From assembly GCA_040371205.1 (NCBI GenBank), contig AP031382.1, positions 2,787,562 to 2,851,561 on the forward strand: 64,000 nucleotides of DNA, written 5' to 3'. Origin of the DNA: Rhodanobacter sp. (GTDB lineage: Bacteria > Pseudomonadota > Gammaproteobacteria > Xanthomonadales > Rhodanobacteraceae). Shown in pieces: positions 3,499 through 27,471 of the stretch. The position numbers and the translations under genes are program-made. How positions within the stretch are numbered: the stretch's first letter is position 1; every line of letters begins with the position of its first letter. Below the pieces are notes generated by a model. It saw nothing but the letters and a program-made list of their open reading frames with translations, was not told the origin of the DNA and did no database searches.

Positions 3499-5580
3499 TT
3501 GGACGGCAAGCTCACCTGGCGGCTCAAGCGCATCGCCTACCTGCTGCAGCGATTGCGCGGCAGCGTGGCGCTGCGCGGCTGGCGCGGCACGCTGGCACGC
3601 GTGCGGCAGGAGTTTCAGCCGGTCGCCGCGCATGACGACTCGCTCGCGCTGATCGCGCTGGACGAACCCTTCGCACCGTTCGCCCTGCCCTGCCCAAGCG
3701 CACCGAAGGTCTCGGTGGTAGTCCCGGTACACGGCAAATGCGCGTACACGGTCGCCTGCCTGCGCTCGCTGGCCCGCCATGGCGCAGACGCGCCGTTCGA
3801 AACGATCGTGGTCGACGACGCCTCGCCCGACGACACCGCAGCCATCCTCGCAACCGTCGAAGGACTTCGCCTGCTGCGCAACTCGGAGAACCTCGGCTTC
3901 GTCGGCAGCTGCAACGCCGGCGCCGCACGGGCGCGCGGCGAATACCTGGTGTTCCTCAACAACGACACCCAGGTGACACCCGGCTGGCTCGACGCACTGC
4001 TCGCCTGTTTCGCCGAGCGCGCCGACTGCGGCATCGCGGGCAGCCGGCTGATCTACCCGGACGGCCGCCTGCAGGAAGCCGGCGCACTGGTGTTCGGCGA
4101 CGGCAGCGCCTGGAACTACGGACGCTTCGAGCCGCGCAACGACGCCGCCTTCCGCTACCGCCGCGACACCGACTACGTCTCGGGCGCTGCGCTGATGATC
4201 CGCCGCGAAACCTTCCAGCGCATCGGCGGGTTCGATGTGCGCTACGCCCCGGCCTACTACGAGGACGCCGACCTCGCTTTCGCCGTGCGCCAACTCGGCA
4301 TGCGCGTGTACTACGAGCCGGCGAGCATGGTGGTGCATTGCGAAGGCATCAGCGCCGGCACCGATACCGACAGCGGCATGAAGCGCTTCCAGCGCCTCAA
4401 CCAGGCAAAGTTCGTCCAGAAATGGAAAAACGAACTCACCCACCAGCCGCCCCCCGGCACGCCGCTGGAGCGCGCTATCCGCTGGCGCCGCCGCGGGCGC
4501 GTGCTGGTGGTGGACGCCATGACACCCGACCCCGGTCGCGACTCCGGCTCGCTGCGCCTCACCGCCATCCTGCGCGTCCTCGATGCGCAGGGCTGGAGCG
4601 TGGCCTTCTGCCCCGACGACGGCCGGGCCTCCGCAAGCGAAATCGCTGCATTGGGCACACTCGGTTGCGAAGTGCTGTGCAGGCCGGAAATCGCCAACCT
4701 TCCCGACTGGTTGCGCCGCCACGGCGGCGAACTGCACGCCGTAATGCTCTGCCGCCACACCGTGGCCGGCCAGTATGCGGCGCTGGTGCGCCGCCACGCG
4801 CCGCAGGCGAGGTTGCTGTTCGATACGGTTGACCTGCACTTCCTGCGCGAACAGCGCGCCGCGGAACTGGCGGGCAGCGACGCCATGCGCCAACAAGCCG
4901 AAAGCTCACGCCGCAACGAACTGAAGCTGATCGAACAAGCCGACATCAGCTTCGTGGTCAGCCCGCACGAGCAGGCGCTGCTGAAGCAGTTATTGCCGAG
5001 CGCGCGCGTGGAACTGCTCTCCAACATCCATGAAGTGCACGGCTGCCGCCGTCCGCATGCCGAACGCCGCGACCTGGTCTTCATCGGCGGCCACGGCCAT
5101 CCGCCTAACAGCGACGCGATGCGCTGGATCGCCAGCGAGATCCTGCCCCGCATACGGCAGTCCCTGCCGGACATGCGCCTGCATGTGCTCGGCGACGTTC
5201 CCGAAACCATGCGCCAGGAGCTTGCCACGCCCGGCCTGGAGTTCCATGGCCGCGTACCCGACCTCTCCCCGTGGCTGGACAGTTGCCTCGCCTCGCTCGC
5301 CCCGCTGCGCTTCGGCGCCGGCGTCAAGGGCAAGATCAACATGGCGATGAGCTACGGCGTGCCGGTCATCGCCACCCCTATTGCCGTGGAGGGCATGCAA
5401 CTGGAGCATGGCCGTGATGTGCTGGTGGCCGAGGACGCCGATGGCTTCGCCATTGCCACGCAAGCCCTCGACGCAGACGCTGCATTATGGCAACGCGTTT
5501 CCATGGAAGGACTGGACAACGTCCGCCATTACTTCTCGCAACTGACTGCTGTCCGGGCTCTGGATACCGCATTGAATTGA
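3499..5580 (+). CDS. Bifunctional GT2-GT4 glycosyltransferase
   Basis: A 693-residue protein with two glycosyltransferase modules. Residues about 69-310 are a GT-A family 2 domain: VSVVVPVHGKCAYTVACL, VVDDASPDD, NLGFVGSCNAGAARARGEYL, FLNNDT and YYEDADLAFAVRQ. Residues about 333-690 are a GT-B family 4 domain with DLVFIGGHGHPPNSDA and APLRFGAGVKGKINMAMSYG near its end. The start codon is TTG at 3499, 18 bases after the ETF-QO stop, so transcriptional coupling to that gene is likely. The same GT2-GT4 layout, with many shared motifs, forms the C-terminal half of the giant protein at 19763-23713, so the two appear paralogous. A role in cell-surface polysaccharide synthesis is inferred from the family and from the adjacent LPS locus; donor and acceptor are unknown. 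Confidence 0.85.
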   Translation: MDGKLTWRLKRIAYLLQRLRGSVALRGWRGTLARVRQEFQPVAAHDDSLALIALDEPFAPFALPCPSAPKVSVVVPVHGKCAYTVACLRSLARHGADAPFETIVVDDASPDDTAAILATVEGLRLLRNSENLGFVGSCNAGAARARGEYLVFLNNDTQVTPGWLDALLACFAERADCGIAGSRLIYPDGRLQEAGALVFGDGSAWNYGRFEPRNDAAFRYRRDTDYVSGAALMIRRETFQRIGGFDVRYAPAYYEDADLAFAVRQLGMRVYYEPASMVVHCEGISAGTDTDSGMKRFQRLNQAKFVQKWKNELTHQPPPGTPLERAIRWRRRGRVLVVDAMTPDPGRDSGSLRLTAILRVLDAQGWSVAFCPDDGRASASEIAALGTLGCEVLCRPEIANLPDWLRRHGGELHAVMLCRHTVAGQYAALVRRHAPQARLLFDTVDLHFLREQRAAELAGSDAMRQQAESSRRNELKLIEQADISFVVSPHEQALLKQLLPSARVELLSNIHEVHGCRRPHAERRDLVFIGGHGHPPNSDAMRWIASEILPRIRQSLPDMRLHVLGDVPETMRQELATPGLEFHGRVPDLSPWLDSCLASLAPLRFGAGVKGKINMAMSYGVPVIATPIAVEGMQLEHGRDVLVAEDADGFAIATQALDADAALWQRVSMEGLDNVRHYFSQLTAVRALDTALN

Positions 5581-6473: not shown

Positions 6474-6478
6474 TCGCT

Positions 6479-6561
6479 CGTCATCCCTGCGCTTGCAGGG
6501 AACCAGCGACTGTAGTCCACACCAAGCCAAAGACACCGGATTCCGTCATCCGCCGGAATGA
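6479..6561 (+). repeat. Degenerate extragenic palindromic repeat between etfB and etfA
   Basis: Two small hairpins lie in the etfB-etfA spacer: CCCTGC-GCTT-GCAGGG at 6485-6500 and ATTCCG...CGGAAT at 6540-6559. The outer sequences read CGTCATCCCTGCGCTTGCAG at the left and GGATTCCGTCATCCGCC at the right. This resembles the extragenic inverted repeats common in Xanthomonadales genomes, which start with GTCATTCCCGC and end with the reverse complement, but the copy has diverged. It lies inside a probable operon and might act as an mRNA-stabilising or attenuating element; that is inference. Confidence 0.5.
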
Positions 6562-6579
6562 AGGTACGAGGAACCGAAC

Positions 6580-9891: not shown

Positions 9892-11118
9892 TTATGGACA
9901 TGTGATCTTGCCCCGCGTGTTGCGCATCGCCAAAGCAATTTTCCTAGCGAGTTTTAGAAAACCTTCCTTGCGGATAGCAACATACATACCTGCACCAACA
10001 AGAGCGAAGCCAAACCAGGACAGATTGGTGCTTTCTGGAATGGAGTGGCCTATAAAAATGTTCCACAAATTGGAAAGTGATGCGACCAGCAGGTTGACCG
10101 TCAATGCCACACCGCACCAGTTCAGCCCCTTGAGCAGCCCCTTGATGATGCCTTGCAACCTGGCCACCTCTCGCTGAGCAAACGCATATGTACCATCAAG
10201 CTCCGCCATGAACGTGACCCGCCGGTCAAACGCCCCTTCCATTTCGGCAGCAGCCTGCAGCGATGGGGGTTCGTGCGCGGGCTGCTGAAGTTGCGCGCTG
10301 AGCCGCCTGGCGTGCCTGACCAGCTCTTTGTCAGTACCAGGTTCGCCAGCATGAAAATCTTCCGGAACGTGTGAGCTGTTAATCTTCACCTTTAATGGCT
10401 CGCTGCACTCCGGCATGAATGCCTCGCCCAGAAATTCAAGCACCTCACGCATGGCTTGAATGGGTCGCTGCACTAGTTCGTCGTATCGCAGCCGGCATAT
10501 GACATCCGGACCCAGCGCAGCCTCAGCCTGCACGCAGGCCTGCACTGTTCGCATCCAATATTCGTATGCCTCCTGCTCGGTCTTCACCAGGCGGGCGTCG
10601 CCATCAGTCTTGAAGTTCAGCATTGAAGCAACGACAGACTCCACATCGCGCACGATATGCACGAATCTCGCGTCCGGAAAGAGCTTTTTGAGGCCGGCGA
10701 TATACATCGAATTTTCCGGCGTGCCGTCCACCCAGCGCGACTTTGACTCGCTGTCTGATCTGGCGATATTGAACGCGGGATGCGTCTGCTCAGGATGCCT
10801 CTCGGCGCAGGAGCGGCTTCGCTCCTCCATCTGAAGGCGATGGCGCAAAATCATCTCATTGATGCTACCGCCGATCGTCTCGAAGAATTCCGCTCGCCCG
10901 ATGCCCGATGCGCTCAATGGGGACCGATCGCCCCGTCGGCACCCCACCCGGTACTGGACCTCAACGCCAACGGCAAACTCACCCAACCAGTTGGACTCCT
11001 CCAGCGGAAGGATGTTCGCGTGCTGCCCCAGGCACCAAGTGAGTACGCTTGTCCCGGACCGCGGTGAACCAACAACGAAAATTGGCCCACGGTCCTGGGC
11101 CGGAAGAAATTCAGACAT
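9892..11118 (-). CDS. Sulfotransferase with C-terminal membrane anchor
   Basis: A 408-residue protein. Residues about 13-27 read IFVVGSPRSGTSVLTW, the canonical PRSGTS loop binding the 5'-phosphosulfate of PAPS. RFVHIVRDVESVVASML (about 150-166) is the 3'-phosphate site with Arg, Asp and Ser. The catalytic domain ends around residue 310. The C-terminus contains two hydrophobic stretches, near VALTVNLLVASLSNLWNI and SWFGFALVGAGMYVAI, followed by basic residues, which suggests anchoring to the inner membrane. It is transcribed against its neighbours. It differs in fold details from the sulfotransferase at 8913-9698, so the pair is not a simple duplication. A role in sulfating a surface glycan or lipid is inferred from location only. 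Confidence 0.7.
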   Translation of the reverse strand: MSEFLPAQDRGPIFVVGSPRSGTSVLTWCLGQHANILPLEESNWLGEFAVGVEVQYRVGCRRGDRSPLSASGIGRAEFFETIGGSINEMILRHRLQMEERSRSCAERHPEQTHPAFNIARSDSESKSRWVDGTPENSMYIAGLKKLFPDARFVHIVRDVESVVASMLNFKTDGDARLVKTEQEAYEYWMRTVQACVQAEAALGPDVICRLRYDELVQRPIQAMREVLEFLGEAFMPECSEPLKVKINSSHVPEDFHAGEPGTDKELVRHARRLSAQLQQPAHEPPSLQAAAEMEGAFDRRVTFMAELDGTYAFAQREVARLQGIIKGLLKGLNWCGVALTVNLLVASLSNLWNIFIGHSIPESTNLSWFGFALVGAGMYVAIRKEGFLKLARKIALAMRNTRGKITCP

Positions 11119-11830: not shown

Positions 11831-11941
11831 GAGCCGATCGAACCACGTATCTAAACATATCAACCGTCTGGCGTGACTCGCTGCCGGTAACGAAGATAGC
11901 CTTCTCTGATTGAACACCAGCCACCTCTAGTGAAATCCCCG

Positions 11942-13042
11942 ATGACCATCATTCCTGTTAACGCGTTGGACCGCCATATTTTGCCGCTCAAGGATTGCCT
12001 GGCGCAGGCTAGCGCAGCCGTCATCGAGAGTGGCTACTTCGTCCTGGGCCCCAACGTGAAAGCCTTCGAACGCGAATTCGCTGCTTACTGTGGAGTCTCA
12101 GACTGCGTCGGCGTTGCCAACGGCACGGAGGCGCTTGAGCTTGGACTCCGCAGTATTGGCATCACTGGAGGCAAGCGCGTCGCCGTGGTTGCGAACGCTG
12201 CTATGTATGGAACTACGGCGGTGCTTGCCTGTGATGCCGAGCCCGTTTTTGTCGACATCGACCCTGTCACCCATACGCTCGATCCCAAATCACTCGAAGC
12301 AACGCTCGCCAGCAGCCCGATCGATGCGGTTATCGTCACCCATCTTTATGGGCGGCTCGCGAACATGGAGGCCATCTTGGCGCTTGCGGACAAGCACGGC
12401 TTTGCTGTTTTCGAGGACTGTGCGCAGGCCCATGGTGCACGCGATGCGTCCGGTCGTCGTGCCGGAAGTTTCGGAAGAGCAGCAAGTTTCAGCTTCTATC
12501 CGACTAAGAACCTTGGCGCCGTTGGCGACGGAGGCGCCGTGGTCACCAACGATCCACTTGTAGCCGATACGCTGCGCAAGTTGCGCCAATACGGCTGGAC
12601 CGCAAAGTATCGCAATGAGCTGGCCGGTGGCCGCAACAGCCGCTTAGACGAGCTGCAAGCGACCTTCCTGCGCACCATGCTACCTTTGCTCGATGGCTGG
12701 AATGCCCGTCGACGCGAAATCGCAAACCGCTACTCCAGGGAAATCCGCAACGACCGCATTAGCACGCCATTGGAAAGTGGCGAGGAATACGTCGCGCATC
12801 TCTATGTGGTGCAGGCATCGGATAGGAATGGGCTGCAGAAGCATTTGGCTGACGCTGGCGTCGGCAGCGATATCCATTACCCGATTGGAGATCATCGTCA
12901 GCCGCTCTTCAACCAGCAGTTCAGCTCGTTAACTTTGCCAACCACCGAATCGGCCTGCGAGAACGTGCTGACGTTACCGTGCTTTCCTGAACTTACCGAC
13001 CTCGAAGTCGCAAGAGTGATCGAGGCGTGCAATCAGTGGTGA
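11942..13042 (+). CDS. DegT/DnrJ-family sugar aminotransferase (WxcK/FdtB/QdtB type)
   Basis: A PLP-dependent aminotransferase of the DegT/DnrJ/EryC1/StrS family, 366 residues. Visible motifs are SGYFVLGPNVKAFEREFA, VGVANGTEALELGLRS, FEDCAQAHGA (Asp binding the PLP pyridine nitrogen) and SFYPTKNLGAVGDGGAVVT, in which Lys forms the Schiff base. Given the downstream WxcM-like 3,4-ketoisomerase/acetyltransferase, it most likely transaminates dTDP-3-oxo-6-deoxyhexose at C3, giving dTDP-Fuc3N or dTDP-Qui3N. The ATG at 11942 is chosen; a GTG four codons upstream is possible. Its end overlaps the next gene, indicating a translationally coupled operon through 15340. The gene order aminotransferase-GT2-WxcM-GtrA resembles wxcK-wxcL-wxcM-wxcN of Xanthomonas campestris, from memory. 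Confidence 0.85.
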   Translation: MTIIPVNALDRHILPLKDCLAQASAAVIESGYFVLGPNVKAFEREFAAYCGVSDCVGVANGTEALELGLRSIGITGGKRVAVVANAAMYGTTAVLACDAEPVFVDIDPVTHTLDPKSLEATLASSPIDAVIVTHLYGRLANMEAILALADKHGFAVFEDCAQAHGARDASGRRAGSFGRAASFSFYPTKNLGAVGDGGAVVTNDPLVADTLRKLRQYGWTAKYRNELAGGRNSRLDELQATFLRTMLPLLDGWNARRREIANRYSREIRNDRISTPLESGEEYVAHLYVVQASDRNGLQKHLADAGVGSDIHYPIGDHRQPLFNQQFSSLTLPTTESACENVLTLPCFPELTDLEVARVIEACNQW

Positions 13043-13986
13043 ACTCTCGCTATTCCATCGTCATACCCGTATACAAGAACGAAGGCTCCGTTCCCGCGCT
13101 GCTGCAGGCGCTGGAGGAGCTGTCGAAGTCTCTCGACGCACTGCTCGAGGTGGTGTTTGTAGTAGACGGAAGCCCAGACGCCAGCTTCCAGACGCTTGAA
13201 CGCGGCCTGCACGCAGTAACGTTTCAGGCAAAGCTTGTATTGCTATCGCGGAACTTTGGCGCGTTCGCTGCTATTCGTTGTGGCCTGTCCGAAGCAACCG
13301 GCGATTACATCGGCGTCATGGCGGCGGATTTGCAAGAACCGCCATCGCTGATGCTGGATTTTTTCGACGCGTTAAGGACGAAGCCGCTCGACGTAGTGTT
13401 TGGCCAGCGCTTGGGTCGATCCGATCCCGGCTTAACCAAACTGGCATCTGGAGTTTTCTGGGGAATTTATCGCCGCCTGGTGGTACCTGATGTGCCTGAA
13501 GGTGGCGTCGATGTATTCGCTGTTACCGCAGCATTCCGTGACCGCCTCTTGGCCCTTGGCGAAGCGAACAGTAGCTTGCTGGGCTTACTGTTCTGGCTGG
13601 GGGGGCGCCGGGAATTCATCGGATATCAGCGCCTTGAACGGCTCCACGGCACGAGTGCATGGACATTCCGCAAGAAGCTGACTTACTTACTGGACAGCGT
13701 ATTCGCGTTCTCCGATCTTCCTGTTCGCGTTCTTATGTCACTGGGCCTCCTAGGCTTAGGGGTTGCCTTCGTACTCGGCGTGATCGTGCTGCTTGCAAGG
13801 CTGCTCGGCGCACATGCAGTGCCCGGTTATGCCGGATCAATGCTGGCCATCCTTTTTTTTGGGGCTTTGAACACCTTCGGTATCGGTATCGTTGGAAATT
13901 ACGCTTGGCGCGCTTATGAAAACACCAAGCAGCGCCCCCTCAACATAGTTTCAACGCGTATCGAATTTCCAGGAAAGGTGATATGA
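13027..13986 (+). CDS. DPM1/GtrB-like membrane glycosyltransferase (GT2)
   Basis: About 319 residues. The N-terminal GT2 domain shows [50 protein letters not shown] and the catalytic MAADLQEPP (ADLQ carries the DxD-like metal site typical of the polyprenyl-phosphate transferase branch). Two hydrophobic segments follow around residues 235-290 ([20 protein letters not shown] and [17 protein letters not shown]). This is the layout of GtrB and ArnC, which charge undecaprenyl phosphate with a sugar at the cytoplasmic face of the inner membrane. The start overlaps the aminotransferase stop; GTG codons at 13027, 13036 and 13039 are all possible. A GtrA-like flippase lies two genes downstream, supporting a lipid-linked-sugar role. 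Confidence 0.82.
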
Positions 13987-14915
13987 GCCACTTTGTGCAT
14001 CCGAACGGGCTATGTGAATCGCCAAACATTGGCGAGGGAACCCGCATCTGGGCATTTGCCCATGTCCTGCCCAACGCAAGGATCGGCAGCGGTTGCAACA
14101 TTTGCGACGGCGTGTTCATCGAAAACGATGTCACGGTGGGCAACAACGTAACAGTCAAGTGCGGTGTTCAGCTGTGGGATGGTGTGACGCTCGAGGATGA
14201 TGTGTTCGTCGGCCCCAACGCAACCTTTACCAATGACTTGCGCCCGCGAAGCAAGGTCTACCCGGAAGCCTTCCTGCGCACCGTCGTCGAGAAGGGTGCA
14301 TCCATCGGAGCCAATGCCACCATTCTTCCTGGAGTTCGGATTGGCCGAAATGCGATGGTCGGCGCTGGTGCAGTCGTCACTCGCTCCGTACCTGCCAACG
14401 CGGTCGTTGTTGGCAACCCTGCCAAGATCGTTGGATACGTCGGCACGTCAGAGACACCTGCTAGCGAGGGGACGCCGTCTCAGATCCAGCCAAAGCGGGG
14501 GGCCCGTCCAACAGCTGTCCGGGGCGTACAACTGCACACCTTCAATGCCGTCACCGACATGCGCGGAACTCTCTCTGTTGGCGAGTTCGAGCACGAAATC
14601 CCTTTTGCAGTAAAGCGCTATTTCCTCGTTTACGATGTGCCTACGTCAGAGGTGCGCGGCGAACACGCACATCACCAGTGCCATCAATTCCTGATTGCCG
14701 TACGAGGCAGCGTACACGTCGTAGCTGATGATGGACATAACCGCGAGGAATTTGTCCTGGACCGACCCCACGTTGGTGTCTACCTCCCACCCATGACCTG
14801 GGGTACCCAATACAAGTATTCCAACGATGCGATGCTGCTTGTCTTCGCTTCACACTTCTATGATGCCAGCGACTATATCCGCGAGTACGACAAGTTCCTG
14901 GAACTGGTGCGGTAG
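13983..14915 (+). CDS. wxcM: Bifunctional sugar acetyltransferase / dTDP-4-oxo-6-deoxyglucose 3,4-ketoisomerase (WxcM)
   Basis: A 310-residue two-domain enzyme. Residues 1 to about 155 are a left-handed beta-helix acyltransferase with many hexapeptide repeats ([59 protein letters not shown]) and the typical [12 protein letters not shown] close. Residues about 165-310 are a cupin ketoisomerase of the FdtA/QdtA type: [46 protein letters not shown] and [15 protein letters not shown], where the paired histidines are the expected active-site residues. The two activities flank the aminotransferase step of dTDP-3-acetamido-3,6-dideoxyhexose synthesis, starting from the RmlB product. In many bacteria they are separate proteins; the fused form is known in Xanthomonas. 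It overlaps the preceding gene by 4 bp. Whether the product has the galacto (Fuc3NAc) or gluco (Qui3NAc) configuration cannot be read from sequence alone. Confidence 0.88.
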
Positions 14916-15620: not shown

Positions 15621-16338
15621 TTATTTTAACTGCTTCGCGTAGGCGGCAGGGGTCAGCCCGCCCAACGCCTTCTTCGGTCGCTCCTCGTTGTATTCCCGCC
15701 GCCAGCGTTCAATCTCGGTGCGGGCGTGCAGCAGGCTGGGAAACCAGTGTTCGTTGAGACATTCGTCGCGCAGGCGGCCGTTGAATGATTCGATGTAGGC
15801 GTTCTGGTTCGGCTTGCCCGGTTCGATCAGGCGCAGTTGCACGCCGCGCTCGTGCACCCAGGCGATCCAGCACGCGCGTCACACCGATCCCGGAGATGGC
15901 TCGTTCGACCTCGATGCCCACCGATTCATGGGTGGCGTCGTCGACGATGGTCAGGCACTTGAGGACGCGGGCGTCGGCGGTGCGATCGAACACGAAGTCC
16001 ATCGACCACACCTCGTTGGGCGCCGATGGACGACACAGCGGCTGCCGCTCGCTCACCGGCACCTTCTTCCGCTTGCGCCGGCGCACCTGCAGCCGCTCCT
16101 CCCGATACAACCGCTCCACACGCTTGTAGTTCACCGGCTCGCCGCCCTCCTGCCGAAGCTTCAGGTGGATCATCCCCACGCCGTAGCGCTTGTGGCGCTG
16201 CGCCAGCTCCACGATCCGCCGTCGCAGCACCACGTTGCGGTCCGGCTGCGCCTGATAGCGGTACGCGCTGGCGCTCACGCCCACCACGCGCAACGCGCAC
16301 CGCTCGCTCAGCCCCTTGTCGATCATCTGGCGCACCAA
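15621..16338 (-). pseudogene. IS3-family transposase OrfB, disrupted by an internal deletion
   Basis: The upstream part (16338 down to about 15870) contains the HTH_21-like region KRYGVGMIHLKLRQEGGEPV, the linker RRRKRKKVPVSERQPL and the first catalytic Asp in VWSMDFVFD. The downstream part (from 15857), in another frame, resumes with [20 protein letters not shown] and carries the catalytic Glu in [17 protein letters not shown]. Between RVLDRL and HERGVQLR a normal OrfB has about 25 residues including the second catalytic Asp (TDNG-type motif). Here they are missing and the frame is shifted. The transposase is therefore inactive. Expected OrfB length is about 275-290 codons; only about 240 remain. 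Confidence 0.85.
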
Positions 16339-16690: not shown

Positions 16691-16722
16691 CTGCTGGGCG
16701 GCGATTGATCAGATGATCCTTA
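16691..16722 (+). repeat. Left copy of a perfect 32-bp inverted repeat
   Basis: Bases 16691-16722 begin CTGCTGGGCGGCGATTGATC and end CAGATGATCCTTA. They are the exact reverse complement of 18576-18607. The repeat holds a 12-bp internal dyad GATCA-GA-TGATC (16707-16718) around a two-base centre. The last three bases (complement TAA) are the stop codon of the enclosed membrane-protein gene. The IS3 element ends at the base before the repeat. Confidence 0.9.
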
Positions 16723-18525
16723 GAGCCTCCGGCCCCCATCTCTTTCACAGACATATGAGTAACCTGTCAAAAGTACGCCCAAGTGTCGCCTGTCACTCGA
16801 TGCACTCATCACGGCAGCAGGCACCGTCGTGGCCGAGACTGAAAGATCTACCACTCTTTCATTTTTGGAAACTCCAAATGGAACTTGTTCACTTTGCCCA
16901 GGAAGTAACCTGATTTCGGCATTCGAAGCAGAATCTTGAACTCTCAAAGTACGCGCCGGAAAGTTTGCAGGCAAATAAACTTGGGCGACAAGATCGCAAT
17001 GACATGCAGGAATTAGCATGCGCGCATGCCCCTCCATCCACGTACTATCCCCTTCACTCAAGTACCAGCCTTTCAAAAGCTTCACACCATCATTTCTGCA
17101 TTCTTCAGACTTCAACTTTGAATACAAAGAAAATCCATGATTACGCATTACCTGATCTCCTCGTCGCGCATTATCCAGCGGCGACTGCAACAAATTAGCA
17201 GCCGCCTGATCAGGAACTCCATTCAACAATGCCTCATTCATTGCTTTGAACGTCAATGCACGATATGGCGCTATCCTCCACTCCTGCTTGTAATTAAGAT
17301 ATTGCCCTGCACCAACAACAAAGCAAAGCACTATAAATCCAGTCAACGTTCCCTTGGATTCTCTCACATTTGCTCGAATCAAATTCTCAAACCAAAGCCA
17401 AATCAAGCCCACGCCAAAAAGCATGATATCCATGTAATAGCGCGACGCCATGACCGCGCCGGGACCATCATGACCCCGCGCGACACTCACCGAAAATGCC
17501 GTGAAAAAGCCGTACGCCATCAAATAGAAAGGGAGCACCGAATAAGCACCCAGCGCATTACGGCGAAATCGAGAAAGCGTCAAGACAACAGCTGCCACAA
17601 ACATACTTGCGCCAATTAATTTTGGAAGTGCGGGAAAAGTTGTGAAATAACTGTGCATTACATCTTGATCAACCACCACAGATCCAAGCGCGTAAAATAC
17701 AAGTCCAGGGATATGAATCAAGGCCGCGGACTTTGCACTCGCCGGACTTCCACCAAAGCCGACGAGACTTGCGACGACATATACAGCCTGAGCAATTAGC
17801 AATGCTATTAACGGAAGAAATTTAGCAGCCGACCTTCGCCAGCCCCCTTGTTTGAACAAACCAATCATTTCAATTGCACTAGCAACCATTACAGCGGCCA
17901 CAAAAGCATATGACCATCCCATGGCCACAAACAAAACGATAACAGGCCCAGCTGAAATTAATCCGAGGCCAGCTATCCATGCGACTCGACGATTAAGAAC
18001 CGCACGCAGATACCAAGAATAGGCAGAAAAATAAATCACAAACAGCAGATTCTTTACCCATAGTGCAAAGCCCAAATCATTCGTAAAGAGTTCAAAGCCC
18101 GCACGACCAAAACAGATCGCTGCAATCAAAATTAAAATGGCCGTTTGAAACACCAAATCGGCCAGCGTTTTTCTTTCCTCTCGGACAGTCGAAACAAAAT
18201 TCGACAACAAAATCAGCGCCAATAACGCCACGACCACGCCAGTGGCTCTATTGGCTAAAATGATGTCAAGCGAAAAAAATTTGGTATTTCCAAGCAAGAT
18301 CAGCTGAAAGATAAACCCAAGATGCTGCCCCTGCCTCCAGTACTCCCAAAACGACATGCGCCCCGACAGCCATTGCTCAAGCTGGTACACCAACCTCAAC
18401 GTATCCATGAATGGAGCATCAGGGTTAGCACGCGTCACATATGCCTGATGAGCAATTAAAAAACAGGCAACAATCACCAAGGAAATCAGATGCCCTGCGA
18501 CACTTTTGTCTTTTATGATCTTCAT
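16720..18525 (-). CDS. Polytopic membrane protein, putative GT-C glycosyltransferase
   Basis: A 601-residue protein with roughly 10-12 membrane segments in the first 410 residues and a soluble, probably periplasmic, C-terminal domain of about 190 residues containing several cysteines. The loop after the first membrane helix reads TRANPDAPFMDTLRLVYQLE; an acidic first loop is typical of GT-C enzymes that use polyprenyl-phosphate sugars, such as GtrC-type O-antigen-modifying transferases. No known family is recognised with certainty. The gene is clearly AT-rich compared with the rest of the window, indicating recent acquisition. It lies wholly inside two perfect 32-bp inverted repeats, whose left copy contains its stop codon. 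Only 50 bp separate its start from the right repeat, so its promoter is short or outside. With the GtrB- and GtrA-like genes nearby it could complete a gtrABC-like set, but it is transcribed in the opposite direction. Confidence 0.65.
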   Translation of the reverse strand: MKIIKDKSVAGHLISLVIVACFLIAHQAYVTRANPDAPFMDTLRLVYQLEQWLSGRMSFWEYWRQGQHLGFIFQLILLGNTKFFSLDIILANRATGVVVALLALILLSNFVSTVREERKTLADLVFQTAILILIAAICFGRAGFELFTNDLGFALWVKNLLFVIYFSAYSWYLRAVLNRRVAWIAGLGLISAGPVIVLFVAMGWSYAFVAAVMVASAIEMIGLFKQGGWRRSAAKFLPLIALLIAQAVYVVASLVGFGGSPASAKSAALIHIPGLVFYALGSVVVDQDVMHSYFTTFPALPKLIGASMFVAAVVLTLSRFRRNALGAYSVLPFYLMAYGFFTAFSVSVARGHDGPGAVMASRYYMDIMLFGVGLIWLWFENLIRANVRESKGTLTGFIVLCFVVGAGQYLNYKQEWRIAPYRALTFKAMNEALLNGVPDQAAANLLQSPLDNARRGDQVMRNHGFSLYSKLKSEECRNDGVKLLKGWYLSEGDSTWMEGHARMLIPACHCDLVAQVYLPANFPARTLRVQDSASNAEIRLLPGQSEQVPFGVSKNERVVDLSVSATTVPAAVMSASSDRRHLGVLLTGYSYVCERDGGRRL

Positions 18526-18711: not shown

Positions 18712-19695
18712 CTACGTTGCCTGCAACAACGTCCTGCGTGCCATCCACAGATTCACCAGCGCGAACAGCGTCGTCACCTGCGCACCGTTCTTCGCTAGCC
18801 CCTTGTAGCGCACCTTCGCGTAGCCGAACTGCCGCTTCAGTACCCGGAACGGATGCTCCACTGCCGCGCGGATCGAGGCCTTGGCGTGTTCCAGTTGCTC
18901 GGTGATCGCACGCAGCGTGGGGTCTTCGATGGCTTTCACCGCGCTGCACCTGGCGGCAATCCAGAACTTCCGACCTCGCCTGGGTGCGCGCTTGTGCGCG
19001 CCGGTGTAACCGGCATCGCCGAACACGTGTCGCTCTGTACCGTGCAGCAGGTTCGCCACCTCGGTCACGTCCGCCACATTCGCCGCCGTGCTCACCACGG
19101 TGTGTACCAGGCCTGTGCGCTCATCCACGCCGATGTGCGCCTTCATCCCGATGTGCCACTGCTGGCCCTTCTTCGTCTGGTGCATCTCGGCATCGCGCGT
19201 CTTGCTCTTGTTCTTCGTCGAGGGCGGTGCCGCGATGATCGTGGCATCCACGATGGTGCCTTGCGACAGCTTCATGCCGTGCCGCTTCAGGTGCTCGCTC
19301 ACCGCCGCGAACAGCTCACCGGCCAAGCCGTGCTTCTCCAGCAGGTGCCGGAACTTGCACACCGTCGTCTCGTCCGGCGCACCTTCCTGGCCCAGGTCGA
19401 TGCCCACGAACCGCCGCATGGCGGCTGAGTCGTACAACGCTTCTTCCACCGCCGGATCGGACAGCGCGTACCACTGCTGCAGGAAGTGGATGCGCAACAT
19501 CCGCTCCAGACCGACCGGGCGGCGACCGCCGCCCACGGGATCCTTCGGGTAGTACGGTCCGATGACCGCGCACAGCTCCGCCCACGGCACTACCTGGTCC
19601 ATCTCGGCCAGGAACACGTCCCGGCGCGTCGGCTTGCGGTGCCGCTCGAAACGGGCGTCGTGATGCATCCACAGACTCATTTGCTTCGACGTCAT
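18712..19695 (-). CDS. IS5-family transposase, apparently intact
   Basis: A 327-residue DDE transposase. The N-terminal domain has DPVGGGRRPVGLERMLRIHF and LQQWYALSDPAVEEALYDS, typical of the IS5 subgroup. The catalytic triad is visible: Asp in GTIVDATIIAAPPSTKNKSK, Asp in HVFGDAGYTGAHKR, and Glu in AAVEHPFRVLKRQFGYAKV with the DDE-associated R and K. The frame is complete, so the element may be mobile. Its right border is near 19748; the left border between 18608 and 18711 could not be fixed because I see no clear inverted repeat there. It sits between the IR-framed GT-C gene and the 3' end of the giant methyltransferase-glycosyltransferase gene. Confidence 0.9.
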   Translation of the reverse strand: MTSKQMSLWMHHDARFERHRKPTRRDVFLAEMDQVVPWAELCAVIGPYYPKDPVGGGRRPVGLERMLRIHFLQQWYALSDPAVEEALYDSAAMRRFVGIDLGQEGAPDETTVCKFRHLLEKHGLAGELFAAVSEHLKRHGMKLSQGTIVDATIIAAPPSTKNKSKTRDAEMHQTKKGQQWHIGMKAHIGVDERTGLVHTVVSTAANVADVTEVANLLHGTERHVFGDAGYTGAHKRAPRRGRKFWIAARCSAVKAIEDPTLRAITEQLEHAKASIRAAVEHPFRVLKRQFGYAKVRYKGLAKNGAQVTTLFALVNLWMARRTLLQAT

Positions 19696-19762: not shown

Positions 19763-22700
19763 CTACGCAGATGCACCCAGCATGCGTCTCAATGCTTCTG
19801 CCATGCTCGCCGCCGAAAAATGCTCCTTGATATAACCCTGGGCTGCATTTGATGTTGCGCGCCAATGCGCATCGTTCGTCAACATATCGACCAGCGCATC
19901 GGCGATTCGCTCCGGATCATCAGATACGGGAATAGCCTCACCCAGGCCAGGCAGGCCCTGCGCCCCAGTCGTAGTCGTGGCCACGGGCACACCGTGGGCC
20001 ATTGCTTCTAGCACCTTCATCTTGACGCCCGCGCCGTAGCGCAGCGGCGCCACCACTACACGCGCGAGTCCGTACAGCATCGCCAACGTGGGGTCATCCA
20101 CATAACCCAGAACTTCGACATTGCTACTGGCAAGAGCCTTTACTTCATCGGTGGGATTGGAACCCACCAGTTGCAACCGTACATCGGGCAGGCGCGCACG
20201 AACGAGCGGCAAGATGGTCCCGACCAGCCACTGCGCCGCGTCTACATTCGGTGGATGTCCGAAACCGGCAACGAATAGAATGTCCCTGCGTTGGGCCAAA
20301 TTGATGCCTGGATCGCGTTCAATATCGCGAAAACAGTACAGCGGCACAGCCAATGCGTGAAGCGAAGGGGCCATCGAACGTACTTGAGCGGCCTCTTCCT
20401 CGGATGGATAAACAACTACGTCGCAGCGATGCCACAAATCCCGCTCGGCGCTTTCCATCGTGTCAGCTTCAATCCCATACCGATCGTCGCCGGTAGCTTG
20501 TTGTTGACGGCGCAGACGCATGAAGTGCAGGTCATGGCCAAAGTAACTTAGGCGCGCACTCGTCTGACGGCGCAATGCATCGATGTAGTGGACAGCGATA
20601 TGCGGACGACTCAGCAAAACATGATCGATCTCTGCCCCACGCTCAGCAATGAACCTGTCGAACTGTCCGACCCAGTTGTTGCCATAGATAACCTCAATCC
20701 CCATCGCCTGCAGCCGCTCCGTATAACCAGGCATGCGCCAGAGATTGTCGGGCCAGAAGATGACCTTCATACCCATGTCGATGAACTGGCGCATGAATTC
20801 AATCATGACCCGCGAGCCCGCGTCGCGATCAGGCTGCGGCACGTAATGATCGATCACTAGGATGGTCTTGGTTGGAACATTGCGCTCACGCGCCCGGGTA
20901 ACATTTTGCGCGTTGGGGTAATGGTCTCGGTTCAGCGACTCACGCCAGCACTCCAAGAACTTTTCCTTGTTCGCGACCTGATACGCCTTGATGCCAGAGT
21001 TCTCGTCGGTGCCGTGCGATATGCCTTCGTAGTGGATCACAGTAGAAAGTGGCGTGTAGTACACCCGCTTGCCCGCCGCCATAACCTTGAACGCTAGATC
21101 AGTGTCCTCGTAATAAGCCGGCACGTAACGCTCGTCAAAACGGCCGACCTGCTCGAACAACGAGCGAGGCACCAGCAGCGATGCGCCCGAACAGTAATCC
21201 ACAGTACGTACATAGTTGTATTCCGGCAATGCTGGATCCTGAAGCCGGCCGTAGTTCCAGCCGGATCCGTCGTTCCAAATAATGCCCCCGGCTTCCTGAA
21301 GCCTTCCGTCCGGATAGACCAGCTTCGACCCCACCATGCCGCAGTCGTCGAAGCGCGTGAACACGTCGAGCATGGCGTCCAGCCAGCCGGACGTCACTTC
21401 GGTGTCGTTGTTGAGGAAGTAAAGGTACTCGCCCCGGGCCATGCCGGCTGCGCGGTTGCATGAGCGGATGAAACCCAGGTTCTGCGGATTGACCTCGTAG
21501 CGCAGGCCCGCGACAGAAAAGAGCGCCTGCATGTCCGCATCTCCGGACGCATCCTCAGCCACCAGGATCTCGATCTCGACTGCAGGCATGTTCGCCTGAA
21601 TCGAGCGCAGGCAAGCTGCGGTGTAGTCCAGGCGGCCGTAGGTCGGGATGATGATACTGACCAAGGGGCGGGGCGCGTCGGGAAACGCGAGGCCTTCCAG
21701 TATCCGCATAGCCTCCGGCGCACTGGGGACTTGGAGCTGGGCAATCGCGCGCTGTGACTCTTCTGCTTTGCGCATGAGCCATTTCTTGGCACCACCCCTG
21801 ATTGGGCTCAGCCAACCGGCACGCGCCAGCGGGCTGCCACGCAGCGACGCCACCACGCCAGACCAGTCTCCTCGCACTAGCCGGCTCGTGAATCGCAGGG
21901 GTTTCGTCAATCGCCACGAATGGGAACGCACCAGCGCATCGTTCTGCTGGCGCAGCTGCTGAATTTCGTCGCGCAGGCTGCGGATGATTTCCTGCACGTT
22001 CCGTTCGTGTCGAGCATGCAGCTTGACTGACTCAAGCTGTTCGGTGAGCTTGCCTTCGAGGGAGGAGAGTTGCTCCCTAAGCAAGCGGTTTTCGTCACGA
22101 CGAGCCGCGATCTCATCCATAAGCGTGGCGTGGCGTGCAAACAGGCTGGCGCTCAGCGAGTCGCTTTCTTCATGGCGAGTGTCACCCAACAGGCTCGCGC
22201 CCAACCGATCGAGCTTTTGCTCGATTCCCCTGGCCCACTGCTCCATTTCCCCCTGCTCCTGTTCAAGGCTTACAACACTCGCAAGTGTATTCTCAAGCTC
22301 GCCTAACGCAAGAATGAGTCGTCTGTCACGGTCCCGCAATGCCGATTTGTGCTCGCCAACTTCTTCCTTCTCGATGGCCAATTCGCGAGACAACTCCACG
22401 ATTCGGGTCCGATAGCCCTCGCACTCGGCCCTGGCGCGCAGTGCCTCGTCGCGCTCACGGGCCGTGGCCGTCAGGGCTTCGGCAAGTTGATCGTGCAGGA
22501 ACCTGATCTTCGTCAGCAACACCTGCTGCTCAGCGTCGAACCGCTGTTGATCCTCCTGGGCGCGCAGCCTTCCCTGCCTGATCTGCTCCTGCGCCGAACG
22601 GAGATCGTCTTCCAAGGCCTGGGTATCGCCGAGTTGAATCTCCAAGCGTTCGACACGCTCACCCGCCCGCGCAAGCTCTTCATCCAGGCTCTTGGCCCAA

Positions 22701-23713
22701 ACAGCCACTTTTTCGTGCTCCGCCAGGGCAACGGCGTGCGTCTCACGGAGGGAGCCCAGTTCCTGATCCAGCTTTTTTGCCCACCCGGCAAACTCTTCCT
22801 TTTCGGCCTGCAAACGCTTGACGTGCTGGCCAGCGACTTCCAACTCCCCGTCCAGGGACTTGGCCCAGTTCACCGCGCCGGCGTGCTCGTCGACCAGCTT
22901 CCCGTATCGGTCCTGCAGCGACGCAAGTTCACCGTTGAGCCCCGTCGCCCAGCGAGCTACTTCGCGGTGGTGGGTATAAAGATCCTCGGCCTCGGAAAAC
23001 AGCACCGACGGCTGCAATTGGGCGGCAATACCGTCATCCACGGCGCCGGTGACGGCGATGAAGTAGACGGGATCAGCCAGTGATGCAGCGCGTTCGACAA
23101 CCTCCGAACCGGTATCCGTCAGTGCGTGAAGGGACCGGATGCTTTCGTCGCTGTGCAGGCCGAAGATCGAGGAACCGACAGCCAATCTCTGCCCGAAATA
23201 CACCACCCGATCGAATTTCTCCTTCAGCACCGCGTCGAATTCGTTGAAATCGAGTTCCTTGACGTGGAATTCGTTGTGATGGCCCGCAAGGTCGGTATAG
23301 ACGACACGGTTCGGCGAAGAAATCACCAATATTCCATCGGGACGCAGAACCCGGCGGATCTCGCTGACCATTTCGCTGTGGCGGTCATGGTGTTCGATGG
23401 TCTCGAACGAGATCACGACGTCGACGCTGTCGTCGGACAAGGGAATCCTGGCCGCATCGCCACGGAGAAATTCGAGCCCGGGAATGTCGCGGTACTGAGC
23501 CCTGGCATGCAGGACCGCCTCGTCCGAAATATCCACGCCAGTGACGGAACGCGCTCCGCGCGCGAGCATGGCGCTGCCGTAGCCCTCGCCACAAGCGATG
23601 TCCAGCACATCTTTTCCGCTGACCAACGGAGCACACCAGGCGTAGCGGTGCAGGTGCTCGTGCCTGATCTCGCCGGCCTCAGTGGGCACGTAACGCTCGC
23701 CCGTAAACTTCAT
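19763..23713 (-). CDS. Giant fusion: SAM methyltransferase, long coiled coil, GT2 and GT4 glycosyltransferases
   Basis: 1316 residues. About 1-225: class I SAM-dependent methyltransferase with [18 protein letters not shown] (motif I at 35-50), a following acidic VTGVDIS and [10 protein letters not shown]. About 240-600: a long predicted coiled coil, containing WAxxLxxEL repeats with Trp at 255, 283, 311 and 339, exactly 28 residues apart. About 684-920: GT2 domain ([52 protein letters not shown]). About 950-1316: GT4 domain ([34 protein letters not shown]). The ATG overlaps the wzt stop by 4 bp (ATGA), so translation is coupled to the ABC exporter. In E. coli O8/O9a, WbdD is a methyltransferase with a coiled-coil ruler that caps the chain and sets its length before Wzt recognition; an analogous role is inferred here, with GTs added and no kinase domain seen. 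The domain calls are firm, the function is inferred. Confidence 0.85.
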
Positions 23714-25107
23714 GTGCTCGCCTCGATGCGCTCGATGACGATGGCCTGCATCGGAATGCCCACCAAGCCATGCCGCATAGTGCTCTCTCTGGCCTTGAAC
23801 GCGAGTGCGTCATGGATCCAATGCTGTTGCGTGTGATCTTCCTGTGTCCCGGTGGCCAATGCTACATCGATCGAATAGTCGCCGCTGGGCAGGATGGGCA
23901 CGCGGAAGCGGAAACGCGCGCGCAGCCGATCTCCAGGCTCAGTCTGGATCGGCGCGTCCCTATAAGCGATGTAAGTGTTGTCGCCAAAGAGGCGCTGACC
24001 TAGGCGGTCCTTGATGTAGAAACCGAAGATGGGTCGGCTCGATGGTTCGATGACGTCCGCCTCAATGTCCAGATCGATCAGTTCGCCACCGTAGGTCAGC
24101 TGACATTGGCCGCCGCTTTCGTCACGCAGACACACGTTTCGAATACGCAACGTTCCTGCGCCGAACTCGGAGTCGATGCAAGCCTCGTCAAACTCGAAAA
24201 TCTCCACCAGATTCCGCTGGGCCTTGCCGTTCAGGATGTCGATACGCGAGTCGATGACGTCGTGCGTCCCGCCGCTGGTGCCTCCCTCGACATTCTTCGC
24301 CGCGGCAACGCGCAATGCGACTTTCTGCCCCAAGGAATCGCGATCCGCGGCGTGCTGAACGGCCAGGTACTGTTCGACCACATCCCGTGCCGCTCCGTCC
24401 ATCACCATTTGGCCCGAATCCAGCCAAATGGCCCGGTCGCACAGATTGAGCACCGCCCCCGTATCGTGACTGACGAAAAGCAACGTCCCGCGCTGCTGGA
24501 AATCACGCAGGTACCGCATGCACTTCTGCGTGAAGCGCACATCGCCCACGCTCAGCGCTTCGTCGATGATCAGTGTCTCGGCGTCTACGTGGGCGGCAAT
24601 CGCGAACGCCAAGCGCACGTACATACCACTGGAATAGGTTTTGACCGGCTGGTCGATGAAGTTGCCGATGTCGGCGAATTCCACGATTGCGTTGAAACGC
24701 CGGCGCAACTCGTCCTCGGCGATGCCATAGAGCAGGCCACTCAGGAAGATGTTTTCCTTGCCCGTGAATTCGGGATTGAAGCCTGCCCCCAATTCGAGCA
24801 AGGCGGCGATTCGGCCAGGTACCCGAACGGACCCTTCGGTCGGATGCAGGGTGCCGCATACCATCTGCAGAAGCGTGGATTTGCCGGAACCATTGCGACC
24901 AATGATGCCAACGGTCTCTCCGCGCCGTACGCTGAAGCTGACGTCTCTAAGCGCCCAGAACTCATCGAAGTACCGGCGCTCGCTCCGGCCAATGGCCCTC
25001 CAAAGGCGCGGCAAGATCATCTGCCTTAGACGATCGGTGGGTTCTGCGTAGATCTCGTAGCGCTTGCTCAGACCCTCGACGCAGATGCTCAGGTCATTAG
25101 AGGACAT
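23710..25107 (-). CDS. wzt: O-antigen ABC exporter ATPase Wzt with C-terminal carbohydrate-binding domain
   Basis: 465 residues from the ATG at 25107. The ABC domain has Walker [21 protein letters not shown], signature [14 protein letters not shown], Walker [13 protein letters not shown] and the H-loop FVSHDTGAV. The enlarged C-terminal domain (about residues 285-465) resembles the Wzt-C beta-sandwich that in E. coli O9a and O8 binds the modified non-reducing end of the finished O-polysaccharide: see [37 protein letters not shown] and [20 protein letters not shown]. The start overlaps the wzm stop by 11 bp; the stop overlaps the methyltransferase-fusion start. This marks the locus as an ABC-transporter-dependent, not Wzy-dependent, O-antigen system. 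Confidence 0.93.
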
Positions 25108-25921
25108 CGGCGAACCCCTTGCGTGTGCGCTCGAACCACACAAATGCCAACCACGCAAACAGGCACGAGCAGACCGAGTAACCCATGAGCAGCAACCAAT
25201 TGGGTAGCCGACCCCAAACCAGCACATCCTGGGAAGACTCCACGATGATGGTTAGCGGATTCAGCAGCATAAAGTGCCGGTATTGCGCAGGGATCGTGGT
25301 GCGCGGATACATGATCGGGGCCGTGAACATCATTGCCACGGTTATGATGCCGACCGCTTGCTTCAAATCGCGCAGGAACACACCCAGCGATGCAAACAGC
25401 CACATGGTGCCCGCAAGAAACGGTACGAAACAGGCCAATACGACAGGGAACAGCACCACGGTCCAGGGTACGGACCTATCCGCGAACAGGGATATGACTA
25501 ACAACACCAGGGTCGATACAGCCAGATGAAACAGCGCGGAACCTAGCGTGCTCCATGGCAAGGTCTCCAGCGGGAAAACTACCTTCTTGACGAAATTGGT
25601 ATTTTCCACAATCAACATCGGCGAACGATTCGCGCACTCGGCAAACATGGCATTGATGTTGAGCCCGGCGAACAGAATCACCACGAATTCCGCATGGCCA
25701 CCGGCCGGACCAACCCACCGCGACTTGAAGATGTAGCCGAACACAAATCCATAAATGGCCAACATCAGCAGCGGATTGAAGAAGGACCACAGGAGGCCGA
25801 TAAACGAGCCTCGATAGCGGCCAATCACATCGCGCTTGGCCATCTGCAACACGAGCGCGAAATGACGAAATAGCGCACGATAAGGCGCGGTCGGATCAGA
25901 GAGGCGGTAACCTGAGATCAT
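25097..25921 (-). CDS. wzm: O-antigen ABC exporter permease Wzm
   Basis: 274 residues with about six membrane helices, an ABC-2-type permease. Motifs of the polysaccharide exporter family are visible: GRYRGSFIGLLWSFFNPLLM, the FAGLNINAMFAEC region, LPWSTLGSALFHLAVSTLVL, GVFLRDLKQAVGIITVAMMF, TAPIMYPRTTIPAQYRHFML and LNPLTIIVESSQDVLVWGR. It is the first gene of a tightly coupled minus-strand operon wzm-wzt-giant fusion. The stop of metB, on the same strand, lies 192 bp upstream, so the operon promoter is either in 25922-26113 or shared with metB. No JUMPstart/ops element was found there. Confidence 0.93.
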   Translation of the reverse strand: MISGYRLSDPTAPYRALFRHFALVLQMAKRDVIGRYRGSFIGLLWSFFNPLLMLAIYGFVFGYIFKSRWVGPAGGHAEFVVILFAGLNINAMFAECANRSPMLIVENTNFVKKVVFPLETLPWSTLGSALFHLAVSTLVLLVISLFADRSVPWTVVLFPVVLACFVPFLAGTMWLFASLGVFLRDLKQAVGIITVAMMFTAPIMYPRTTIPAQYRHFMLLNPLTIIVESSQDVLVWGRLPNWLLLMGYSVCSCLFAWLAFVWFERTRKGFADVL

Positions 25922-26113: not shown

Positions 26114-27280
26114 TCAGCCAAGGGCAGCTTCCAATTCGCACCGCAGGTCCGTCACATCCTCAACGCCAACCGATAGCCGAACCAATCCATCACTGATACC
26201 GAGCTGCTTGCGATTGACGGGAGGCACCGAGGCGTGGGTCATGATCGCCGGGTGTTCGATCAGGCTTTCCACACCACCCAACGACTCGGCCAGCGCGAAC
26301 AACTCGCAGCGCTCCAGCATGCGGCGCGCCTTCTTCAGGCCGCCCTTGACCTCGATGCTGATGATGCCGCCGAAGCCGTGCATCTGGCGCTTGGCCAGCG
26401 CGTGCTGCGGGTGGCTCTTGAGTCCGGGGTAGACCACCCGTTCGACGGCGGGATGCTTGTCCAACCAGCTGGCCAATTCCAGCGCGCTGGCGCAATGCTG
26501 GCGCATGCGCAGGTGCAGGGTCTTCAGGCCTCGCATGGCGAGGAAGGCGTCGAACGGGCCGGCCACCGCGCCGACTGAGTTCTGCAGGAAGGCCATGCGT
26601 TCGGCCAACTCCTTGTTCCCGGCGACCACGATGCCGCCGACCATGTCGGAGTGCCCGTTGAGATACTTGGTAGCCGAATGCAGCACCAGGTCCGCGCCGA
26701 ATTCCAGCGGGCGCTGCACCATCGGCGAGCAGAAGGTGTTGTCCACCACCAGAATCAGGCCGTGCTTTTTCGCGAAGGCGGCGACCTTGGCCAGGTCGAC
26801 CAGCTTGAGCATGGGATTGGTCGGGGTTTCCGCCCAGATCATCCGCGTGTTCGGTTTCAGCGCGGCTTTCAATGCCGCGCCGTCGTTGAGGTCGATGAAG
26901 CTGAAATCCAGGCCGGCGGATCGACGACGCACCCGCTCGAACAGGCGGTAACTACCGCCGTAAAGGTCATCCATTGCGATCACGTGGCTGCCCGAGTCGA
27001 GCAGGTCCAGCGTGGTGGCCGCCGCCGCGAGCCCCGAGGCGAAGGCGAAGCCGGCCACGCCGCCCTCGAGATCCGCCACGCAGCGCTCGTACGCCATGCG
27101 CGTAGGATTTTGCGTGCGCGAATATTCGTAGCCCTTGTGCTTGCCCGGACTCTCCTGCACGTAGGTCGAGGTGGCGTAGATCGGCGTCATGATCGCGCCG
27201 GTCGACGGATCGGGATGCTGGCCGGCATGGATCGCGCGGGTGCCGATTCCAAGGCGGGCAGCGGACATCTTTCTAGGCAT
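26114..27280 (-). CDS. metB: Cystathionine gamma-synthase / Cys-Met metabolism PLP enzyme
   Basis: About 388 residues, a fold-type I PLP enzyme making cystathionine from an O-acylhomoserine and cysteine in methionine synthesis (a cystathionine beta- or gamma-lyase activity cannot be excluded by sequence alone). The Schiff-base Lys is in DLVLHSATKYLNGHSDMVGG; TSTYVQESPGKHKGYEYSRT, NPTRMAYERCVADLEGG, MDDLYGGSYRLFERV and AETPTNPMLKLVDLA are family signatures and match Xanthomonas MetB closely. The start at 27280 is one of several possible; an alternative ATG lies at 27268. In Xanthomonas metB is the conserved border of the LPS locus opposite etfA, and it has the same role here. Confidence 0.9.
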   Translation of the reverse strand: MPRKMSAARLGIGTRAIHAGQHPDPSTGAIMTPIYATSTYVQESPGKHKGYEYSRTQNPTRMAYERCVADLEGGVAGFAFASGLAAAATTLDLLDSGSHVIAMDDLYGGSYRLFERVRRRSAGLDFSFIDLNDGAALKAALKPNTRMIWAETPTNPMLKLVDLAKVAAFAKKHGLILVVDNTFCSPMVQRPLEFGADLVLHSATKYLNGHSDMVGGIVVAGNKELAERMAFLQNSVGAVAGPFDAFLAMRGLKTLHLRMRQHCASALELASWLDKHPAVERVVYPGLKSHPQHALAKRQMHGFGGIISIEVKGGLKKARRMLERCELFALAESLGGVESLIEHPAIMTHASVPPVNRKQLGISDGLVRLSVGVEDVTDLRCELEAALG

Positions 27281-27471
27281 AAGTGGGCAACCGTGCGGGA
27301 GACAGGCGCCATGGGCGGCTGCGGCTAAAGGATCGTTCATTGTACTTGCGGCGCGTCGATTTGCCTTAACCGTGCATTGCCATCGCGAACCACCTGCGCA
27401 CGCACGCAGGCATGGGTACGGCGCGGCCATGCGAGAATAGGCCTCTTGCAGCCACACGGATCCCGCGCTTC

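Follow-up and report, generated by a model that had tools for sequence, protein, structure and literature searches.

A candidate one-chain methyl-terminator, ruler and polymerase encoded beside wzm and wzt in Rhodanobacter

The matching of terminators to exporters and the setting of chain length are known mostly from a few enteric model systems. Among the closest described proteins, WbbB of Klebsiella pneumoniae O12 and Raoultella terrigena is reported to perform both polymerisation and termination, with an N-terminal terminator, a coiled-coil ruler and two polymerising glycosyltransferases (GTs) near the C-terminus, and ORF6 of K. pneumoniae O7 is described as one chain with an N-terminal methyltransferase, a kinase, a carbohydrate-binding module (CBM), a coiled coil and two C-terminal GT modules (PMC11231755). 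WsaE from the S-layer glycan cluster of Geobacillus stearothermophilus is described as a methyltransferase with two rhamnosyltransferase domains and a role in the 2-O-methyl cap, the reading frames of wzm, wzt and wsaE overlapping (PMC2943079), and WbdD of E. coli O8 and O9a as a chain-ending methyltransferase that in O8 is a simple, kinase-free enzyme and in O9a has a C-terminal coiled coil (PMC3482155). Here we analyse a stretch of 64,000 nucleotides of Rhodanobacter sp. (contig AP031382.1; the window) with a gene that joins a methyltransferase, a long heptad rod and two GT domains in a single protein of 1316 residues (the fusion). The fusion is probably a methyl-capping version of a known one-protein machine; the exchange pattern seen among its relatives and its repeat-built rod are the points that deserve attention.

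Domain layout and comparison with described systems

The fusion is encoded by an intact frame on the minus strand (19763-23713) with an ATG start and a single terminal stop, and frame 1 of the plus strand over the same interval contains numerous stops. Pfam searches placed Methyltransf_11 at residues 37-131 (E 1e-23), Glycos_transf_2 at 686-807 (1.8e-18) and Glyco_trans_1_4 at 1143-1280 (2.3e-27), giving the order S-adenosylmethionine methyltransferase, heptad region of about 360 residues, GT2 and GT4-like domain. No kinase family was present among the 21 Pfam families listed at E ≤ 0.1, and the interval between methyltransferase and heptads is too short for a 223-residue kinase like that of K. 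pneumoniae O7, so that a hidden kinase was rejected. At the junction with wzt (AGCACATGAAG) the fusion ATG and the wzt TGA share the sequence ATGA; the upstream wzt encodes ABC_tran and Wzt_C domains and the adjoining wzm an ABC2_membrane domain, the cluster thus containing both a Wzm permease and a Wzt with a C-terminal carbohydrate-binding domain. A first-pass annotation of this DNA had proposed the single chain, its domain order, the lack of a kinase, the start/stop overlap and the linkage to Wzm/Wzt, and all of these were borne out by the reading frames and the domain searches. The architecture is beyond chance, because relatives that match over the full length at 46-55% identity (best segment) and have their parts in the same order occur at 8 loci in Rhodanobacter and in the other genera Pseudoxanthomonas, Dyella and Lysobacter.

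By domain search and periodicity, the fusion has the layout of a WbbB-type machine, with the terminating enzyme at the N-terminus, the coiled coil in between and the GTs at the C-terminus. The terminator of WbbB, however, is described as a β-Kdo transferase, whereas the N-terminus of the fusion is a Methyltransf_11 domain, and ORF6 of O7 differs from the fusion, in which no kinase was matched, by its kinase and CBM, by its methyl-phosphate cap and by having GT2 modules in both positions. WsaE, compared by description, shares with the fusion the methyltransferase, the two GT domains and the overlap with wzt, but a coiled coil is not mentioned in its description (PMC2943079), whereas the fusion has a heptad rod. 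In domain layout (Pfam) the fusion agrees with the kinase-free O8 form of WbdD, yet WbdD acts beside a separate polymerase, WbdA, which its C-terminal region recruits, whereas the fusion carries its own GT domains; no chain named WbdD was among the best 60 of 62 matches of the methyltransferase in the PDB. The first-pass annotation had regarded the combination as not described, a claim that has to be given up since WbbB, ORF6 and WsaE already fuse terminator and polymerase, and the lack of a kinase has a precedent in the O8 WbdD described as a simple methyltransferase (PMC3482155).

The fusion is no singleton but one ordinary representative of a widely distributed set. Matches at 1e-100 occur in 158 of 233 genomes of the family, and in the genus 12 of 15 genomes show a match of some kind, in most cases to the GT half, with G003 and G013 joining the methyltransferase to other C-terminal parts. 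Plasmid-borne relatives in Gluconobacter and Pseudodesulfovibrio are 36-38% identical. A search of the order with the methyltransferase (residues 1-250) gave matches at 1e-50 in 160 of 398 genomes, in many cases to short stand-alone proteins. For comparison we used 40 regions picked by hand, mostly from the best family matches (L086-L125), and 40 picked by hand among the matches listed for the methyltransferase search of the order (L146-L185), and dropped five loci identical to later ones (L009, L012, L013, L018 and L020). The distinct fusions with this methyltransferase number 32 (23 + 9).

Apparent joint exchange of the putative terminator and cap reader

Co-variation was analysed in 29 loci (406 pairs), leaving out rows in which Wzm, Wzt and fusion did not occur together. 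Similarity of Wzt_C followed that of the fusion N-terminus closely (r 0.976), and the GTs followed neither Wzt_C (r 0.022) nor the N-terminus (r -0.021); given the ATP-binding cassette (ABC) domain, Wzm and the GTs, the partial correlation of Wzt_C with the N-terminus was 0.626 (permutation p 0.001). The N-termini fall into three kinds (21, 4 and 4 loci), each with a separate class of Wzt_C, and the GTs are as alike between kinds as within them. Changes of N-terminal kind number at least 6 on the GT tree, which has 27 rows; for the Wzm and ABC trees, of 29 rows each, the lowest counts are 3 and 2, the latter being the minimum. All of these are quick trees with some weak nodes. We take the six changes on the GT tree as the soberer count, because the permutation and the shuffles leave relatedness in.

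Individual loci illustrate the exchange. Beside methyltransferase fusions, Wzt_C resembles that of the window (51-74% identical in match). Where the same GT pair follows a different N-terminus, which is so in eight fusions (L089, L094, L098, L104, L105, L107, L108 and L110), the ABC domain is retained at 55-68% and Wzt_C is a different one; two loci (L118 and L119) carry the same methyltransferase on other GTs, with a Wzt_C class that still matches; in L118 the GT order is GT4-like, then GT2. The second N-terminal kind (L089, L105, L108 and L110) has a different methyltransferase and several hundred further residues ahead of the rod (Pfam), and its layout appears to resemble that of ORF6. The third kind (L094, L098, L104 and L107) has DUF4915 in the terminator position on the same rod and GT pair (Pfam), and this domain, with matches in 14 of the 233 genomes of the family, could be a cap-writing enzyme not recognised so far. 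Comparison of L101 and L104, two loci from the same genus, gave identities per 50 residues of 62-88% in Wzm, 18-34% in Wzt_C, 12-26% in the fusion N-terminus and 64-94% in the GTs, the exchanged block beginning in Wzt past the ABC domain and ending within the rod. Judged from these sequences, the polymerase end recombines freely with the three N-terminal kinds, and the writer and the reader of the cap, which abut across the ATGA, seem to have been swapped as a pair during evolution, irrespective of the polymerase half of the protein. A further type of N-terminus, sulfotransferase-like and possibly a sulfate-type terminator, is found on the same sort of rod and GTs in L095, L096, L097 and others; it has matches in 80 of the 233 genomes of the family, some of them unfused, and L095-L097 have no Wzt directly adjoining.

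Ten further fusion loci (L166-L175), one of which repeats L014 and has no Wzt, were searched with a profile of the first 21 readers; this profile matched 9 of 9 Wzt proteins that had not been used in building it, with 240-279 bits. The closest solved structure to the window Wzt_C is the carbohydrate-binding domain (CBD) of Aquifex aeolicus Wzt (PDB 8dky, 8.4e-10; also 6o14). This domain is described as binding 3-O-methyl-mannose but not mannose, the A. aeolicus O antigen ending in 3-O-methyl mannose or rhamnose, by means of a methyl pocket made of Leu300, Thr346, Ala348 and Trp362, in which the tryptophan stacks on the methyl group (PMC9445017). The column of this tryptophan is Trp in 30 of 30 readers beside the methyltransferase and Arg in all 8 readers of the other two kinds (4/4 and 4/4). 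The latter readers are closest to PDB 2r5o (1.5e-25 and 4.7e-17), which we take to be the E. coli O9a reader of the methyl-phosphate cap, and have a D-R-R-x-D motif in common with it. Reader sequence and predicted writer chemistry would therefore be in agreement for the methyltransferase kind and for the O7-like layout, and for the DUF4915 kind one might speculatively predict a cap that is charged and perhaps bears phosphate. Short relatives of the methyltransferase (L146-L165 and L176-L185; frames of 281-676 residues) have a Wzt nearby in 29 of 30 loci and appear to be a Wzm/Wzt-linked methyltransferase family.

Rod, proposed mechanism and rival explanations

Hydrophobic residues in the rod (240-600) recur with a best period of 3.50, none of 2000 shuffles being as strong, and the same holds for the strong periodicity of the first half (240-420; 0/2000); Pro and Gly together make up 5% of the region versus 10-13% of the enzyme domains. 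Within the heptads we identified a unit of 28 residues with the motif W-A-K-S-L-D-x-E-L. In 43 proteins, identity at lag 28 was 0.219 versus 0.123 in heptad-preserving shuffles (z 26.5), and lag 56 was likewise raised (z 17.4), with rods of the other N-terminal kinds taken from the first W motif, which may slightly favour repeats; identity was not raised at lags 27, 29, 35, 42 and 49 in the same comparison, and the window protein alone gave a z of 3.8 at lag 28. Measured between the invariant alignment columns Trp255 and Trp600, the rod spans 76-395 residues in 23 homologues and 345 residues in the window, equivalent to about 51 nm at the coiled-coil rise of 0.148 nm per residue. Rod lengths modulo 28 fell into one class in 7 of 23 cases (p 0.0006 against random lengths, a value inflated by near-identical relatives). 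The conserved S-x-S-W helix that joins the rod to GT2 is a possible membrane-proximal helix.

The DNA of L106 still shows the unit (84 bp x 3.9, 85%), and the DNA-level repeat of L107 is weaker. The window rod has no DNA-level tandem repeat except a 5-bp run, and its units are therefore old. In a plasmid-borne relative from Pseudodesulfovibrio the rod contains a different unit (L187:6620-7105; 54 bp x 9.0 copies, 99% alike), an array that looks like a recent minisatellite inside a putative chain-length ruler. These patterns suggest that the rod grew by tandem duplication. More tentatively, and at somewhat less than even odds, the methyltransferase and Wzt_C could form one exchangeable cassette on a constant polymerase, with termination chemistry and export specificity switching in one step, while ruler units (of 28 residues, or of 18 residues in the distant plasmid-borne relative) would be gained or lost and lineages would retune O-chain length by in-frame repeat number. 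A limited search, which does not establish absence from print, found no paper on the joint exchange of terminator and Wzt_C or on a 28-residue unit in such rulers.

With a probability of roughly 0.7, we read the fusion as a one-chain methyl-terminator, ruler and polymerase coupled to Wzm/Wzt, its capping, ruler and polymerase activities being predicted ones. The C-terminal GT2 and GT4-like domains would extend a lipid-linked glycan at the membrane, and the heptad rod, partly made of 28-residue units, would hold the methyltransferase away from the polymerase such that, by analogy with WbdD and WbbB, only sufficiently long chains reach it. The methyltransferase, kinase-free like the O8 WbdD, would then O-methylate the non-reducing end and halt growth, and the adjoining Wzt_C would recognise the methyl cap for export by Wzm/Wzt. 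As the window genome has a single Wzt of the fusion-linked kind (next match 35%, in a 277-residue frame) and no match at E ≤ 1e-10 to PF01943, the one flippase family searched, Wzm/Wzt is the natural exporter. The relatives add evidence for the cap-reading part of this scheme, namely the co-exchange, the reader profile and the tryptophan.

Several results weigh against this scheme. By alignment, the window Wzt_C matches two of the four Aquifex methyl-pocket residues (Ala348 and Trp362), with Leu300 and Thr346 replaced, and does not keep Aquifex His350, Asp354 and His355; although the Aquifex CBD is its closest solved relative and a binder of 3-O-methyl caps, several sugar-contacting residues are not shared, and the sugar or the position may differ. 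The reader profile matched 0 of 29 Wzt near the short methyltransferase relatives, only 1 of which has the HW motif; methyltransferase kinship alone therefore does not fix the reader, and the pairing holds for the fusion clade, not for the whole family. Of the 360-residue coiled coil proposed in the first-pass annotation, the overall period and the first half stand as a prediction, but the second half (420-600) is weaker (p 0.089, best period 3.46). Variable rod length also fits a neutral spacer, two of the 32 fusions, L014 (seen again as L168) and L117, are without an adjacent Wzt (their genomes gave only weak Wzt matches, of 37% and 42%), and neither Wzm nor Wzt was present in the fetched stretches of five relatives (the plasmid-borne L186-L189 and L190 from Paenibacillus). 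The spacer-like lengths and the fusions and plasmid relatives without Wzt would suit a methyltransferase that decorates sugars throughout the chain, or some other acceptor, without being a terminator, with the rod an oligomerising scaffold of no meaningful length. We consider this unlikely, as reader and methyltransferase kinds change jointly, the methyl-stacking Trp is constant in the readers beside the methyltransferase, and the 28-residue register is maintained more strictly than a loose spacer requires.

The co-variation of writer and reader might also reflect mere adjacency in the DNA, with no functional match. The two genes abut at the ATGA, and the neighbouring ABC domain also follows the N-terminal module (partial r 0.549), so that linkage does account for part of the pattern; within the methyltransferase kind alone the specific signal is weak, with a partial of 0.396 (p 0.004) for Wzt_C and N-terminus versus 0.304 (p 0.049) for Wzt_C and GT. 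Adjacency as the whole explanation is nonetheless very unlikely, given that the GT half, which shares its gene with the methyltransferase, shows no such co-variation and needs the most changes on its tree, and that the swapped readers differ, Trp versus Arg, precisely at the methyl-contacting residue. It is rather unlikely, too, that the GT2-GT4 half is an adaptor-type pair and that the main chain is made by the paralogue at 3499-5580 or by another GT: the same cluster does encode this second GT2-GT4 protein, and many family genomes have matches the size of the GT half that lack the N-terminal parts, but in the characterised one-chain systems, as described, the polymerase consists of the GTs C-terminal to the coiled coil (PMC11231755).

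The relatives offer a natural matched series, in which the same polymerase pair is combined with three N-terminal kinds and three reader classes and writer-reader matching can be tested. One terminator on rods of 76-395 residues would allow the ruler model to be tested without engineering, and the Trp/Arg switch of the reader would make cap chemistry predictable from sequence.

Features of the window and surroundings of the fusion gene

Table 1. Position of the fusion, its parts and associated genes in the window
Feature	Position	Strand	Basis or remark
Fusion gene, 1316 aa	19763..23713	-	Methyltransferase, heptad rod, GT2, GT4-like; open reading frame and Pfam
N-terminal S-adenosylmethionine methyltransferase, residues 1-200	23114..23713	-	Pfam core 37-131; strongly conserved in 23 relatives
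Heptad (predicted coiled-coil) region, residues 240-600	21914..22996	-	Period 3.50
28-residue units, Trp 255, 283, 311, 339	22616..22951	-	Lag statistics
S-x-S-W helix, residues 597-625, joining rod and GT2	21839..21925	-	S597, W600, P605 and R607 invariant in 23 sequences
GT2 domain, about residues 684-910	20984..21664	-	Pfam
GT4-like domain, about residues 950-1312	19778..20866	-	Pfam
ATGA overlap, fusion start and wzt stop	23710..23713	-	Sequence
wzt	23710..25107	-	Start is an internal ATG; longest frame starts at 25227
Wzt_C, candidate cap-reading domain, residues 353-490 of the 505-aa frame	23758..24171	-	Pfam 4.1e-32; PDB 8dky 8.4e-10
wzm	25097..25921	-	ABC2_membrane 1.3e-25
Paralogue of the GT2-GT4 half only, 39% identical	3499..5580	+	Opposite end of the cluster

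The cluster is bordered by a cystathionine gamma-lyase (metB-like) gene at 26114-27457 and, at its other end, by electron-transfer flavoprotein genes at 5727-7521 (both identified by eye). Xanthomonas lipopolysaccharide clusters are described in the same placement between metB and etfA and, as here, begin with wzm and wzt at the metB end; the WsaE-like region of BXO8 and Xac 306, however, is described as two open reading frames, one of them called truncated (PMC2238763).

Directly downstream of the fusion lies an IS5-like transposase frame (18712-19695, minus strand), and an IS3-like transposase fragment is found at 15709-16338 (both by eye). In 10 of 22 relatives with a listed neighbour, the next downstream gene starts like a GHMP-type sugar kinase, a position occupied here by the transposase. 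We found no evidence for a phage or mobile origin of the fusion, although transposase genes flank it; a PHROGs search gave weak methyltransferase and GT matches only, and an Rfam scan of 9000-34000 gave no match. Genes for a DegT aminotransferase, a GT2 and a hexapeptide/FdtA fusion (11930-14915, plus strand, and 16720-18525, minus strand) suggest a dTDP-3-amino-sugar, and together with a 601-residue frame that has no Pfam match they could, speculatively, constitute a side-branch system that acts after export. A sulfotransferase-family gene (Sulfotransfer_3, Pfam) is located inside the O-antigen cluster at 9892-11118 on the minus strand.

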